This document shows positions 16,716-43,529 of a DNA stretch of 64,000 nucleotides, piece after piece. The DNA is from Rhodopseudomonas faecalis. Its GTDB lineage: Bacteria; Pseudomonadota; Alphaproteobacteria; Rhizobiales; Xanthobacteraceae. Both the position numbers and the translations under genes were made by a program. Each line of letters begins with the position of its first letter. Position 1 is the first letter of the stretch. The notes beneath the pieces are model-generated. The model saw nothing but the letters and a program-made list of their open reading frames with translations. It had not been told where the DNA came from and searched no databases. The DNA is taken from contig NZ_QJTI01000010.1 of the NCBI RefSeq assembly GCF_003217325.1, positions 62,001-126,000 on the forward strand. The letters run 5' to 3'.

Positions 16716-17461
16716 CGGGCACACCGGCATTCTGCGGTTGGGGCGGCAACAAGAGCGTCCGCGCTGGAACCGCGAAGCGGTTTCAGGCTGCTTGCAGGAA
16801 TGTCGCGGACCACCCAAAGCGTCATGCTAGATTGACAATGGTACTGCCGCATATCTTTGATGCGGCTCAAGAACCAGAGAACCAATCTCATCGGCGGCAG
16901 GTCGCGCCGTGATCGGCCGGGCCGGGCGGCCCACTCGGCCGAGTCAGAATATTCCTGACAGCGCCGCCCGCATGGCAGCACTGCGTGGGCGGGGTAGGCG
17001 CGGCCGTTGCATCGCCCGCAGCCGTGGCCGTAGCCGGACAAAAGCCGGAATGGGATGTGAATCAACCGATTAACCGGCTAGGAGCGCGTTGAGGCGATCG
17101 CCCCGTTCCGTGCGGGGCGCGAAACCTTCCGGTTCCAGTTCCAAAATCCGAACTTTCCGCCAAATCACAAAACAGCGGCCCATTGTCACGTTTAGTTGAC
17201 AAGAACCGGTGTCAGGTGTTTCTTACACCCGCTCTCACGGGAGCCTTTATCCAAGACCATAGGTCTGGCTTGAAGGCGCTGCAGTGAAGCCCAGAGCCAT
17301 CGCGCTGGTCGGACGTCGTCTTGTTTGAAAGTCAGACAAGACGGCCGGCGCCAAGCGGGACTTTGGACCGGCCGGGGCACACCGAGATTTTCTCGATGCC
17401 ACGGCAAAACCCTCGTGCGGGTTCAGCACGAATTGGTCGTAAGTCTCTGAGGAGGTTTCTA
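16716..17461. other. Intergenic region upstream of pucB
   Basis: About 750 bases between the divergent regulator gene and pucB. Except for the PpsR operators at 17184-17227 I see no gene. The 5' half is GC-rich with scattered short palindromes. The long leader between the operators and pucB (about 230 bases) probably includes the transcript start and an untranslated leader, and ends in the strong GGAGG ribosome site of pucB. Confidence 0.6.
17184..17227 (+). promoter_or_regulatory. Tandem PpsR/CrtJ operators of the puc operon
   Basis: Two perfect matches to TGT-N12-ACA lie 26 bases apart: TGTCACGTTTAGTTGACA (17184-17201) and TGTCAGGTGTTTCTTACA (17210-17227). PpsR/CrtJ binds paired sites of this kind and represses photosynthesis promoters under oxygen. 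The right half of the first site contains TTGACA (17196-17201), a good -35 element; the -10 is weak, suggesting an activator is also needed. The ppsR gene is in this window. Confidence 0.85.
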
Positions 17462-17617
17462 ATGGCAGACGATCTGAACAAGGTCTGGCCGACTGGTCTG
17501 ACGATTGCGGAGTCGGAAGAGCTCCACAAGCATGTGATCGACGGCACCCGCGTGTTCGGCGCGGTGGCGATCTTCGCTCACTTCCTCGCCTACGTTTACA
17601 CCCCCTGGCTGCACTAA
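17462..17617 (+). CDS. pucB: LH2 beta chain
   Basis: The beta apoprotein of the peripheral antenna LH2, 51 residues. The N-terminal helix carries [20 protein letters not shown], followed by one membrane helix with His40, the ligand of a B850 bacteriochlorophyll, and the conserved end YTPWLH. A consensus AGGAGG ribosome site precedes the ATG. It is the first gene of pucB-pucA-pucC and the two repeat-protein genes. Relatives carry several puc copies with slightly different absorption; this is one such copy. Confidence 0.97.
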
Positions 17618-17641: not shown

Positions 17642-17821
17642 ATGAATCAAGGTCGTATCTGGACCGTTGTGAAGCCGACCGTTGGTCTGCCCCTCCTGCT
17701 GGGCAGCGTCACCGTGATCGCGATCCTCGTCCACCTCGCTCTGCTGTCGAACACCACCTGGTTCCCGAAGTACTGGAACGGTAAGACCGCGGCGATCGAG
17801 AGCTCGGTCAACGTTGGCTAA
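17642..17821 (+). CDS. pucA: LH2 alpha chain
   Basis: The alpha apoprotein of LH2, 59 residues, starting [20 protein letters not shown], a typical Rhodopseudomonas LH2 alpha start. Met1 would carry the B800 ligand group, and His31 in the single membrane helix binds B850. Tyr44-Trp45 (FPKYWNG) is the hydrogen-bonding pair found in B800-850 complexes; low-light B800-820 forms have other residues there. This chain therefore predicts a B800-850 spectrum. It starts 24 bases after pucB and is followed by a hairpin. Confidence 0.97.
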
Positions 17822-17850: not shown

Positions 17851-17874
17851 GACCGGGATCTAAGGGTCCCGGTC
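17851..17874 (+). terminator. Intercistronic hairpin pucA-pucC
   Basis: GACCGGGA (17851-17858) pairs with TCCCGGTC (17867-17874) around an 8-base loop, just after pucA. There is no T run. In puc and puf operons such hairpins stabilise the abundant antenna message and limit read-through into the assembly gene, which fits this position. Confidence 0.65.
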
Positions 17875-18003: not shown

Positions 18004-19452
18004 ATGAATCCAGTCAGCCAAAAAGTGATGAAGGCTTGGATCGCGTTGGGCACCCGCTTTCTGCCTTTCGCGGATGCCGCAACGCCAGACTTGCCGCTGT
18101 CGCGGCTGCTGCGACTCTCCCTTTTTCAAGTTTCCGTCGGCATGTCCCTGGTGCTGCTCGTTGGCACGCTCAACCGGGTGATGATCGTCGAATTGAACGT
18201 GCCGGCGTCGATCGTCGGCGTGATGATTTCGTTGCCGCTGATCTTTGCGCCGTTCCGTGCGCTGATCGGCTATCGCTCCGACGTGCATCAGTCGGTGCTG
18301 GGCTGGCGCCGCGTGCCGTTCCTGTACAAGGGCACCATGGTGCAGTTCGGCGGTCTCGCCATTCTGCCGTTCGCGCTGCTGGTGCTGTCCGGCGGCGGTG
18401 AAGCCGGTCATGCGCCGGTGTGGATCGGCCAATTTGCAGCCGCGCTGTCATTCCTGCTAATCGGCGCTGGCGTGCACACCACCCAGACCGTTGGTCTGGC
18501 GCTGGCGACCGACCTTGCCGCGCCCGAGTCCCGCCCCAAGGTGGTGGGGCTGATGTACACCATGCTGCTGCTCGGCATGATCGTCGCGGCCTTCGTGTAT
18601 GGCGCGCTGCTTGCTGAATTTTCGCCGGGCCGCCTGATTCAGGTGATTCAGGGCGCCGCCGTGATTACCATCGTGCTGAACGCGATCGCGGTCTGGAAGC
18701 AGGAAACCCGCAGCAGCGCGGCCAAGGCGCGCGCGCAGCAGCAGGCCACCACCTTCCGCGATTCCTGGAACGTCTACATCAAGGGCGACAACGCGATGCG
18801 TCGCCTGATCGCCGTTGGCCTCGGCACCATGGCGTTCAGCATGGAGGACGTGCTGCTCGAGCCGTTCGGTGGCCAGGTGCTGCATCTCAGCGTCGGCGAC
18901 ACCACCAAGCTCACCGCTGCGCTGGCGGTCGGTGGTCTGTTCGGCTTCGGTCTGGCGTCGCGCGTGCTCAGCCGCGGTGCTGATCCGTTCCGGATGGCGA
19001 GCTATGGCGCGCTGGTCGGTATTCCGGCGTTCATGGCGGTGATTTTGGCCGCGCCGTTCTCATCGGCGCTGCTGTTCGGCTTCGGCACGTTGATGATCGG
19101 TTTTGGCGCCGGCCTGTTTGGTCACGGCACTCTGACCGCCACCATGAACGCTGCGCCGAAGGATCAAGCCGGTCTCGCGCTTGGTGCGTGGGGCGCGGTA
19201 CAGGCTTCCGCTGCAGGTATTGCGATCGCGCTTGGTGGCATCTTGAGAGACATTGTTCACGCTCTCGCACCAAATACTGTGCTCGGTCCTGCGGCGGGGT
19301 ACCACTTCGTTTACTCGCTCGAAATAGTTTTGCTGTTTGCGACACTCGTAGCAATGATCCCGCTGATCCGGCGCCCGAAAGGCTTCGCCGAGGCGGATGA
19401 GTTGCTGGCGCGGCCGGAGATCGGCCTTGAGACTGAAACGGAGAAGTCATGA
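18004..19452 (+). CDS. pucC: LH2 assembly factor PucC (BCD transporter family)
   Basis: A 482-residue, twelve-helix membrane protein of the PucC/LhaA (bacteriochlorophyll delivery) branch of the major facilitator superfamily. Typical stretches are LSLFQVSVGMSLVLLVGTLN, NRVMIVELNVPASIVG, the GWRRVPFLYKGT loop and MEDVLLEPFGG. PucC is needed for LH2 assembly, probably by guiding pigments or apoproteins. It lies 180 bases after pucA and its stop codon overlaps the next start (ATGA), so the repeat-protein gene is translationally coupled to it. ATG 18004 is preferred to a TTG 15 bases upstream; neither has a good ribosome site. Confidence 0.95.
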   Translation: MNPVSQKVMKAWIALGTRFLPFADAATPDLPLSRLLRLSLFQVSVGMSLVLLVGTLNRVMIVELNVPASIVGVMISLPLIFAPFRALIGYRSDVHQSVLGWRRVPFLYKGTMVQFGGLAILPFALLVLSGGGEAGHAPVWIGQFAAALSFLLIGAGVHTTQTVGLALATDLAAPESRPKVVGLMYTMLLLGMIVAAFVYGALLAEFSPGRLIQVIQGAAVITIVLNAIAVWKQETRSSAAKARAQQQATTFRDSWNVYIKGDNAMRRLIAVGLGTMAFSMEDVLLEPFGGQVLHLSVGDTTKLTAALAVGGLFGFGLASRVLSRGADPFRMASYGALVGIPAFMAVILAAPFSSALLFGFGTLMIGFGAGLFGHGTLTATMNAAPKDQAGLALGAWGAVQASAAGIAIALGGILRDIVHALAPNTVLGPAAGYHFVYSLEIVLLFATLVAMIPLIRRPKGFAEADELLARPEIGLETETEKS

Positions 19453-20099
19453 CGCAGATCACCCGACTGTACGACTCGACCCGACAGATTCCGTCGATCG
19501 AGACCGAGCTGAAGAACAACGGCTATCGGTACGCCGTGGTGACCAGCGCGCAGCCGAGCAATGGTGCGACCTTGGACGACAGCATCCTGGCTGCGCTTGG
19601 GCGCGCCGGTGTGTCGCGCGGCGAGCAGGCTGCCTGCCTCGATGCGATCAAGCGCGGTGGCGCTTTGGTGTCGGTGAATGCGTCGTTCGGCTTCGGCGCC
19701 AAGGCGTCGGCGCTGCTCGACAAGTTCGGTCCGGGCAAGATCACCGCGACCAGCAGCGCGTCGGTCAACGCTGATGATGAAGATTGCAAGGCTGCGCCGT
19801 TCTCCAAGATCGTGCGCGCCCCTGTGCTGCTCGATACGTCGGGCGAGTACAAGTCCTATTCGGGCACGCCGCTGCTGCTCGATAGCAAGAAGTTCTTGTC
19901 GGGCACGCCGCTTGTGCTCAAGGGCGACAAGTTCTTCTCTGGCACTCCCCTGCTGCTCGACAGCAGCGGTCCCTACAAGTCGTTCTCCGGCACTCCTCTG
20001 CTGATTGACGACAAGAAGTACTATTCGGGGACTCCGCTGCTGCTGAACAACCCGACCCCGCTGTCTTCTTGGCTGGGTCTTCCCGTCCTCTTGAAGTAG
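19449..20099 (+). CDS. puc-operon protein: globular domain plus seven LH2-gamma-like repeats
   Basis: A 216-residue protein in two parts. Residues 1-97 form an alpha/beta domain: SIETELKNNGYRYAVVTSAQ, a helix LAALGRAGVSRGEQAACLDA, and the strand RGGALVSVNAS. The order resembles small ferredoxin-like DUF1269/general-stress domains, a tentative match. After a charged linker come seven units of P-(L/V)-(L/V)-L/I type, five reading G-T-P-L-(L/V)-(L/I), beginning near residues 124, 139, 152, 165, 181, 194 and 210 (spacings 13, 15 or 16), joined by aromatic/lysine turns such as DSKKFLS. There is no membrane helix. Its ATG overlaps the pucC stop, so it is coupled to pucC. The repeats match the next gene. 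I infer a role in LH2 architecture or assembly; no function is known to me. Confidence 0.85.
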   Translation: MTQITRLYDSTRQIPSIETELKNNGYRYAVVTSAQPSNGATLDDSILAALGRAGVSRGEQAACLDAIKRGGALVSVNASFGFGAKASALLDKFGPGKITATSSASVNADDEDCKAAPFSKIVRAPVLLDTSGEYKSYSGTPLLLDSKKFLSGTPLVLKGDKFFSGTPLLLDSSGPYKSFSGTPLLIDDKKYYSGTPLLLNNPTPLSSWLGLPVLLK

Positions 20100-20109
20100 G
20101 ATCACCACC

Positions 20110-20364
20110 ATGAGCGAATACAAAGGTACCTCCGGCCAGCCGCTGCTGCTCGACAGCAACAAGTTCTTCTCGGGCACCCCGCTGCTGCTCGACAGCAACA
20201 AGTTCTTCTCGGGCATGCCGCTGCTGCTCGACAGCAACAAGTTCTTCTCGGGCACCCCGCTGCTGATCGACAGCAAGACCACTTTTTCGGGCTCGCCGCT
20301 GATCCTCGAGCAGAAGGGCGAGTACAAGTCCTTCTCCGGCCAGCCGCTGCTGCTGTCGAAGTAA
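20110..20364 (+). CDS. Candidate LH2 gamma subunit: six GxPLLL repeats (84 aa)
   Basis: An 84-residue protein that is almost entirely repeats. Six units with the core P-L-(L/I)-(L/I) start with Gly at residues 9, 22, 35, 48, 61 and 77, spaced 13, 13, 13, 13 and 16. Linkers read DSNKFFS, DSKTTFS and a longer EQKGEYKSFS. It has no signal peptide or full membrane helix, so it would form an extended ribbon. From memory, the gamma chain seen by cryo-EM in R. palustris LH2 winds past six alpha-beta units near the cytoplasmic side and binds six extra bacteriochlorophylls; six repeats fit one per unit. It starts 10 bases after the longer repeat gene and a strong terminator follows. The gamma identity is inference from repeat count, size and operon. 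Confidence 0.85.
   Translation: MSEYKGTSGQPLLLDSNKFFSGTPLLLDSNKFFSGMPLLLDSNKFFSGTPLLIDSKTTFSGSPLILEQKGEYKSFSGQPLLLSK
20140..20256 (+). repeat. Three near-identical 39-base tandem repeats in the gamma-like gene
   Basis: Units starting at 20140, 20179 and 20218 each encode PLLLDSNKFFSG(T/M). They differ at only a few bases, much closer than the protein constraint alone requires, so the array looks recently expanded or homogenised. Each unit is exactly 13 codons, so gain or loss keeps the frame. Confidence 0.9.
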
Positions 20365-20392
20365 GACGACACGTCCGTTTCGGACACGAAAG

Positions 20393-20430
20393 CGCCGCAG
20401 GCAGCAATGCCTGCGGCGTTTTGCTTTTTG
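20393..20430 (+). terminator. Rho-independent terminator of the puc operon
   Basis: A 10-base perfect GC-rich stem, CGCCGCAGGC (20393-20402) with GCCTGCGGCG (20409-20418), has a 6-base loop and is followed by TTTTGCTTTTTG. It ends the pucBAC-repeat gene operon. Confidence 0.9.
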
Positions 20431-43476: not shown

Positions 43477-43529
43477 TGTCATGAAAATCTTACAGGCCGA
43501 GGCTGGAAAACTGTCAAGAAACAGTTACA
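43477..43529 (+). promoter_or_regulatory. Tandem PpsR/CrtJ operators before crtI
   Basis: Two perfect TGT-N12-ACA sites: TGTCATGAAAATCTTACA (43477-43494) and TGTCAAGAAACAGTTACA (43512-43529), 35 bases apart, before crtI. A clear -35 is not visible; TACACT (43526-43531) could be the -10. The spacing differs from the 26 bases seen at the other three paired sites in the window. Confidence 0.85.

Follow-up and report, generated by a model that had tools for sequence, protein, structure and literature searches.

A likely LH2 gamma subunit of Rhodopseudomonas with shortened repeat steps appears related to a wider ribbon-tailed family encoded beside antenna genes

Organization of the puc operon

The window, the whole stretch of 64,000 nucleotides that was analysed, carries an LH2 operon in which pucB, pucA and pucC are followed by a gene for a two-part protein and then by a gene for a likely LH2 gamma subunit, the same order as in the genome G003 (Table 1). 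The initial annotation had placed this last gene in one operon with pucB, pucA and pucC, and that claim held, as the genes share a strand and the other three products give LHC, LHC and PUCC matches. It overlooked the second gene with SG units, which lies between pucC and gamma, ends 10 bases before the gamma start, and is the less known part of the locus.

Two palindromes upstream of pucB are features that we take to be PpsR/CrtJ-type sites. The hairpin between pucA and pucC could conceivably act as an attenuator that keeps pucC and the two genes after it at a lower level than pucBA; this role is inferred. The NCBIfam pufB equivalog model, which bears an LH1 beta name, passes on pucB with 66.8 bits against a cut-off of 61, so automatic annotation may mislabel the gene as LH1. 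The nearest solved chains of pucB and pucA are both from R. palustris LH2, and we regard pucB as an LH2 and not an LH1 chain.

Table 1. Features of the puc operon in the window
Feature	Position	Strand	Remarks
TGT-N12-ACA palindrome, PpsR/CrtJ-type	17184..17201	+	upstream of pucB
Second TGT-N12-ACA palindrome	17210..17227	+	upstream of pucB
pucB, LH2 beta chain	17462..17617	+	PF00556 E 3.3e-10; closest solved chain 7zdi_B (R. palustris LH2), E 1e-29
pucA, LH2 alpha chain	17642..17821	+	PF00556 E 3.7e-15; closest solved chain 7ze8_A (R. palustris LH2), E 4.9e-32
Hairpin between pucA and pucC	17851..17874	+	-20.9 kcal/mol, z -3.5
pucC, LH2 assembly protein	18004..19452	+	PF03209 E 1e-153; ATG at 18004, mechanical ORF from TTG 17989
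Two-part ribbon protein	19449..20099	+	216 aa; overlaps pucC stop by 4 bases
N-terminal folded domain of two-part protein	19449..19745	+	about residues 1-99; AlphaFold2 pLDDT 70 to 91 in residues 1-90
Tail of two-part protein	19791..20096	+	cap AAPFSKIVRAPVLL, five SG units, cap PLSSWLGLPVLL
LH2 gamma (likely)	20110..20364	+	84 aa; six SG units; homologous to solved gamma chain
Terminator-like hairpin with T tail	20389..20422	+	-31.2 kcal/mol, z -4.6; probable operon end

The gamma gene

RPA1495, the gamma polypeptide of LH2 in R. palustris, was published in 2022. This chain encloses six of the nine alpha-beta pairs and carries one bacteriochlorophyll (BChl) at each of six apices, with the Mg ligated by serines and a mean distance of 27.6 Å between the gamma pigments (PMC9618040). 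Its presence in LH2, which shows an extra gel band of about 10 kDa, was confirmed by mass spectrometry, and the authors saw a single clear candidate gene for it; the upstream gene is not mentioned in the sections bearing on it (PMC9618040). The reason why gamma spans only part of the ring was called unclear, gamma was reported in Rhodopseudomonas only, and LH2 rings of 7, 8 and 9 are known (PMC9618040). Gamma (Q6N9P5) was also found in low-light LH2, where it was the one extra protein named (PMC9897067). PucE, a 14-kDa LH2 protein of Rhodobacter capsulatus that is likewise named gamma, is encoded after pucC too.

The product of the 84-codon frame in the window (MSEYKGTSGQPLLLDSNKFFSGTPLLL...) contains six SG-x-PL(L/I)(L/I) units whose serines are residues 8, 21, 34, 47, 60 and 76. 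The steps from unit to unit are thus 13, 13, 13, 13 and 16 residues, or 68 in total compared with 80 for five 16-residue steps. This bears out what had been proposed from sequence alone, namely an 84-residue product with six G-x-P-L-(L/I)-(L/I) units at 13- or 16-residue spacing and no membrane helix; the latter was judged by eye, without a predictor, and no run of sufficient length was seen. When the protein was shuffled 20,000 times, one shuffle reached two G-x-PL[LI][LI] units and no shuffle exceeded that number, compared with six in the real protein. Synonymous divergence exceeded nonsynonymous divergence in all three gamma pairs compared (dN 0.011 and dS 0.105 between this copy and that of G002, R. 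palustris JSC-3b). A chance or low-complexity reading of the frame was ruled out by the shuffles, dN/dS and conservation. Matches to Pfam MinC_N and LRR_2 were below cut-off and taken as repeat artefacts, and neither this protein nor the 216-residue one matched the LHC alpha/beta profile PF00556 at E up to 1.

A phmmer search of PDB sequences with the 84-residue protein returned the R. palustris LH2 gamma chain as its sole match (7zcu_S, with the sister entries 7zdi, 7ze3 and 7ze8; E 5.9e-30). Alignment to this deposited chain had been set beforehand as a check, and the facts given in the initial annotation (six of nine pairs, six extra BChl) are confirmed by the text of PMC9618040. All six serines, which are pigment ligands in the solved structure, are kept despite the shorter steps. 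Since the protein is homologous to 7ZCU_S, gamma itself is already known and this copy is a variant; the identification was right and, given the 2022 publication, there is no novelty in gamma as such. The protein likely serves this Rhodopseudomonas as its LH2 gamma subunit, with the reservation that there is no biochemistry for the strain and that its presence in LH2 and its BChl binding are inferred. In common with R. palustris gamma (RPA1495, Q6N9P5; chain S of 7ZCU, 7ZDI, 7ZE3 and 7ZE8) it has six SG-x-PL(L/I)(L/I) units, comes last in the pucBAC operon, as it does in G003, and is small. In contrast to that protein it has 84 rather than 97 residues, steps of 13, 13, 13, 13 and 16 rather than 16 throughout, and fewer charged linker residues.

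Unit number and spacing across Rhodopseudomonas

Twenty-two gamma copies were found, of which 21 are complete. The remaining one, in G012, is truncated where its contig ends; as the contigs break inside gamma, the two-part gene is unseen there. At all 21 complete loci the two-part gene directly precedes gamma. The gamma of G003 is letter-identical to the printed Q6N9P5 and occupies an operon position equivalent to that of the window gamma.

Six units are present in 20 of the 21 complete copies, and four in the other, at one of two loci in G007. The steps of 13, 13, 13, 13 and 16 are shared by this genome (G000) and G002, and G060 (R. rhenobacensis DSM 12706) has 13, 13, 16, 13 and 16; all other complete copies have 16 throughout. 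These three genomes form one clade with support of 100/93 in the tree of the neighbouring gene's N-domain. In our view even 16-residue spacing is typical of gamma and does not define it. A unit length that varies while unit number is mostly fixed is what a one-to-one match between units and alpha-beta pairs would predict. For R. palustris, the correspondence of one unit, one pair and one pigment has been demonstrated; for the window gamma it is inferred, and the contacts in the coordinates were not examined. That repeat number sets the reach of the ribbon also remains an inference, with which six units at either spacing in 20 of 21 copies agree. An extended peptide covers about 3.3 Å per residue. 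Thirteen extended residues would therefore span about 43 Å, more than the distance between gamma pigments, so that a shallower ribbon is possible.

The two-part protein upstream of gamma

The two-part protein itself matches the solved gamma chain (E 1.1e-17), and the five SG serines of its tail are invariant in 12 aligned members. AlphaFold2 folded the N-domain as strand-helix-strand-helix-helix-strand-helix, with pLDDT of 70 to 91 per ten-residue block, and a second model gave identical elements (mean 77.5, pTM 0.65). The tail was left unstructured, which is uninformative without the LH2 ring. A fold search of the PDB gave only weak nucleoside-diphosphate-kinase-like matches, with best E values of 0.12 for the whole model and 0.065 for the domain.

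Comparison of family profile A4 with 17M/YflT-like proteins by hhalign gave a probability of 97.8% and E 1e-12, values that apply to that single comparison only. Both halves of the N-domain align, flanking a Gly-zipper insertion of the 17M-like proteins, one of which matches YflT (PF11181) at E 3.7e-7. The window protein had no match in Pfam, PF11181 included, at E up to 1 and a single NCBIfam match far under cut-off. YflT was absent from the matches of the 15 A4 members at E up to 0.1, and these members gave only single weak Pfam matches, the best to PF00156 (E 0.0012, one of 15) and three other families weaker. No Pfam or NCBIfam model is passed at its cut-off by the relatives located near puc. 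As the PF11181 cut-off is not met, we treat the two-part protein as a distant YflT relative and do not file it as a member. Its domain can be aligned to each half of the YflT/17M-like stress proteins, whereas the two-part family lacks the Gly-zipper insertion and a Pfam match, has a ribbon tail and is encoded beside LH2 genes. PucC (PF03209) has the operon in common with this family but is a 12-helix membrane protein of another superfamily.

For the pairs G008/G009 and G001/G014, the tail has dN of 0.035 and 0.025 and dS of 0.216 and 0.145, compared with dN of 0.136 and 0.123 and dS of 0.433 and 0.324 for the N-domain. The dN/dS ratio is therefore about 0.16-0.17 in the tail and 0.31-0.38 in the domain, making the tail about two-fold more constrained by ratio in these two pairs.

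No description of the upstream family, including RPA1494, which we take to be the CGA009 tag of the upstream gene (deduced from RPA1495), was found in the open-access literature searched; most subscription papers and the supporting information of the structure paper were outside the search. Given these limits, and since R. capsulatus PucD and PucE were not compared, an earlier description is not excluded.

The family in puc regions of other bacteria

A family gene was found within 3.2 kb of pucA or pucB in 54 alphaproteobacterial genomes, 18 with the SG array and 36 without. This set was picked from hits and is not a census. The order-level association rests on profile A2, whose rows come only from the Rhodopseudomonas line and from G150 and G331; in these two the family protein lacks an SG array and is located after pucC. 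Profile A4 has 15 members, three of them with an SG array, and was built mostly from puc-linked proteins; against the PDB its only significant match was the solved gamma chain (E 2.3e-14).

In the order sample (397 genomes, A2), matches adjoin pucBA in 20 genomes, this one included. With four or more LHC matches as a proxy for LH1 plus LH2, a family gene lies beside pucBA in 19 of 23 such genomes and in 1 of the other 374 (Fisher test, p 1e-27, which ignores shared descent and uneven locus reading). The reading was uneven because four of the counted 19 (G438, G449, G485 and G643) entered through partial hits chosen by location. Among genomes with one or two LHC matches, 1 of 54 has a family gene (G569, with two LHC hits, one of them in the puc locus). 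Four genomes of one genus with 6 to 11 LHC matches (G420, G462, G526 and G575) showed no family gene near puc at the one puc locus read in each; the partial hits of G420 and G462 are distant from the listed LHC genes or on different contigs. The partial hits of ten genomes of the order sample that have one or two LHC matches (G394, G504, G553, G559, G580, G601, G652, G660, G693 and G761) are on different contigs from, or more than 170 kb off, the listed LHC match.

The class sample (385 genomes) yielded 19 matched genomes including this one; 12 of the other 18 were read, and in 10 the gene lies beside pucA or pucB. In the remaining two (G889 and G1113) no puc gene was seen in the 10 kb read, and six partial hits were left out of the reading. 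Twelve genomes of the phylum sample (388 genomes) were matched, with the partial hits of G559, G688, G713 and G1099 left out; five genomes of the taxonomic family f74 have the family gene about 0.2 kb or less after pucC. The remaining partial hits were uncounted in all samples. Weak hits covering part of the profile were read at ten loci and rejected: nine are 17M-like proteins that have the Gly-zipper insertion, and the tenth (G1113, L192) is of another kind.

Across 391 genomes of the taxonomic family, the SG two-part protein occurs within the genus, in G060, and in two genomes that share a GTDB genus, G020 (Rhodopseudomonas sp. Cfx3-05) and G064; the same search returned the G150 and G331 proteins, which lack the array. 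Outside the Rhodopseudomonas line the tails have no SG-x-PLLL array and at most isolated SG dipeptides, so that pigment binding there is unsupported. In a tree of 119 N-domain columns, 23 SG-array rows form one clade (98/90) and 36 of 66 inner branches are well supported; support for the array having arisen only once comes from this one tree. Related Rhodopseudomonas genes away from puc exist, and because some have one or two SG units, single units may predate the array. A cap-like motif matched 59 of 69 tails compared with 573 of 13,800 shuffled tails; the expression was fitted by eye on those same tails and is descriptive only. Two alpha chains from family-bearing loci had R. palustris LH2 alphas as their best solved matches.

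Ribbon length variants

A 145-residue ribbon without an N-domain occurs in four genomes: G007, G010, G012 (R. pseudopalustris DSM 123) and G020. Its eight SG units, spaced 16 residues apart, and the cap that ends it make nine positions, as in the R. palustris ring; the units are partly non-canonical, the third being SGSLILL. In G007, G010 and G020 its gene comes after a further gamma gene. In G007, the four-unit gamma adjoins the nine-position ribbon gene in one of two pucBAC-type loci (L046 and L016).

A family protein of G1337 (f74) has eight MA-x-x-P-x-PL units of exactly 25 residues each, the last diverged, and since the repeat ends in an LGLPTL cap it too has nine positions. G1337 falls outside the SG-array clade on the N-domain tree, and the arrays have therefore probably expanded independently. 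A 399-residue frame in G1289 (L206, 4990-6186) combines the N-domain with twelve MA-x-(W/F)-P units of 15 to 30 residues; no puc gene was seen near it in the 11 kb read. Variants with 4, 6 and 9 positions, together with 13- and 16-residue steps at constant number, would make the question of how a linear peptide measures a protein ring open to direct tests.

Proposed function and origin

We propose that gamma is stretched out as a ribbon along the cytoplasmic side of the LH2 ring, where each SG-x-PLLL unit would dock on one alpha-beta pair and its serine would hold one extra B800-type bacteriochlorophyll. Six pairs with six pigments are in print for R. palustris gamma and inferred for the window gamma. 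The three residues missing from four of its five linkers would make the undulation shallower and leave the register unchanged. Gamma would most likely descend from a copy of the two-part gene that was reduced to its tail, without the N-domain. Efficient LH2 assembly in Rhodobacter sphaeroides needs PucC (PMC4949548), and the wider family probably helps PucC to assemble or complete LH2 rings: the proline-leucine tail would thread along and bind nascent alpha-beta pairs as PucC supplies the pigment. Within the Rhodopseudomonas line, a serine-ligand array would have been added to the tail, which would thereby have become a permanent pigment-bearing subunit. Gamma would then belong with a wider ribbon-tailed family encoded beside antenna genes in many bacteria, a relationship that is inferred. 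Such a family broadens the subject from one genus to the LH2 operons of many Alphaproteobacteria and offers a candidate assembly partner for PucC that is open to deletion tests.

Taken in full (gamma identity, docking, tail origin and assembly family), we consider this explanation likely. The origin of gamma from the tail and the setting of reach by unit number are untested inferences within it; tails are too short for a tree, and descent is inferred from similarity and adjacency. Several points stand against it. There is no biochemistry for the strain, and 13-residue steps do not occur in the solved gamma. The two-part protein is unreported in purified R. palustris LH2 in the sections bearing on it of PMC9618040 and PMC9897067. 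In four genomes with many LHC matches the family was not found near puc at the one locus read in each, relatives exist away from puc, and the N-domain has no significant fold match in the PDB.

A bolder reading may be offered, in which many Alphaproteobacteria build LH2 rings with, or keep on them, ribbons of one undescribed operon-linked family. Unit number would fit the ring, with Rhodopseudomonas gamma as the pigment-loaded six-unit form. The nine-position ribbons of four genomes, and independently that of G1337, could close round a whole nonamer, and the published gamma on six of nine pairs would be one among several natural lengths. Taken whole, we are more inclined to doubt this reading than to accept it.

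Alternative explanations

The two-part protein could instead be a second structural LH2 subunit, a gamma with a cytoplasmic head, present on some rings only or on the three gamma-free pairs and lost or sub-stoichiometric upon purification. We consider this possible but not likely. The five invariant serines and the unit held in common with gamma favor it, as do the diverged copies found alongside additional pucBA pairs in G005 and G014. It is weakened by the lack of any report of the protein from LH2 preparations in the sections cited above, by the mismatch of five SG units plus caps with three free positions, and by the absence of the SG array from the two-part protein outside the Rhodopseudomonas line. 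A less favored view is that the family merely regulates or protects, with a stress-protein-like N-domain and a tail that acts as a membrane anchor, and that gamma was recruited separately. The alignment with 17M/YflT-like proteins, seen in a single comparison, and the related Rhodopseudomonas genes away from puc speak for this view; however, the tail is more constrained than the domain in the two pairs compared and bears the gamma unit, and a family gene lies beside LH2 genes in 54 genomes. We think it unlikely.

It is also improbable that the window gamma, with its 13-residue steps, was made for a different ring size or for fewer than six pairs. The shorter sum of the five steps (68 residues compared with 80) and the known rings of 7, 8 and 9 (PMC9618040) leave room for this idea. 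Against it, 13 extended residues still exceed the pigment spacing, unit number stays constant at six, and steps of 13 and 16 are mixed in G060. The preferred reading remains that of a six-pair gamma drawn from the tail of an assembly family.

Additional observations

Two further family proteins of this genome (G000:C28:14108-14608, read at L011 and L058, and G000:C17:239-934, read at L121) carry GLPVLL caps; SG units are scarce or missing in them, and the stretches read around their genes show no puc gene. Beside an additional pucBA pair, G005 (L059) and G014 (L061) each encode a diverged two-part protein with SG units that lacks the C-terminal cap; L059 also has a luxR-type regulator and a pucBA pair in convergent orientation nearby. 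R. palustris rpa3011 is reported to be low-light induced and to adjoin pucBAd (PMC6879726). Its equation with the diverged gene of G005 and G014 was considered and dropped, as a pucBAd-like locus in G011 has no detectable gene of this kind.

Fourteen TGT-N12-ACA sites occur in the whole window compared with 5.3 expected, including a second close pair at 43477-43494 and 43512-43529. The alpha chain encoded by pucA has GLPLLLGS near its N-terminus (17684-17707), resembling the gamma unit GTPLLLDS, and VGLPLFLG or a similar motif occurs in most LH2 alphas from family-bearing loci; mimicry and chance are both possible. Long C-terminal extensions are present on the LH2 alpha chains of L119, L146, L152 and L154, giving total lengths of 125-133 residues.
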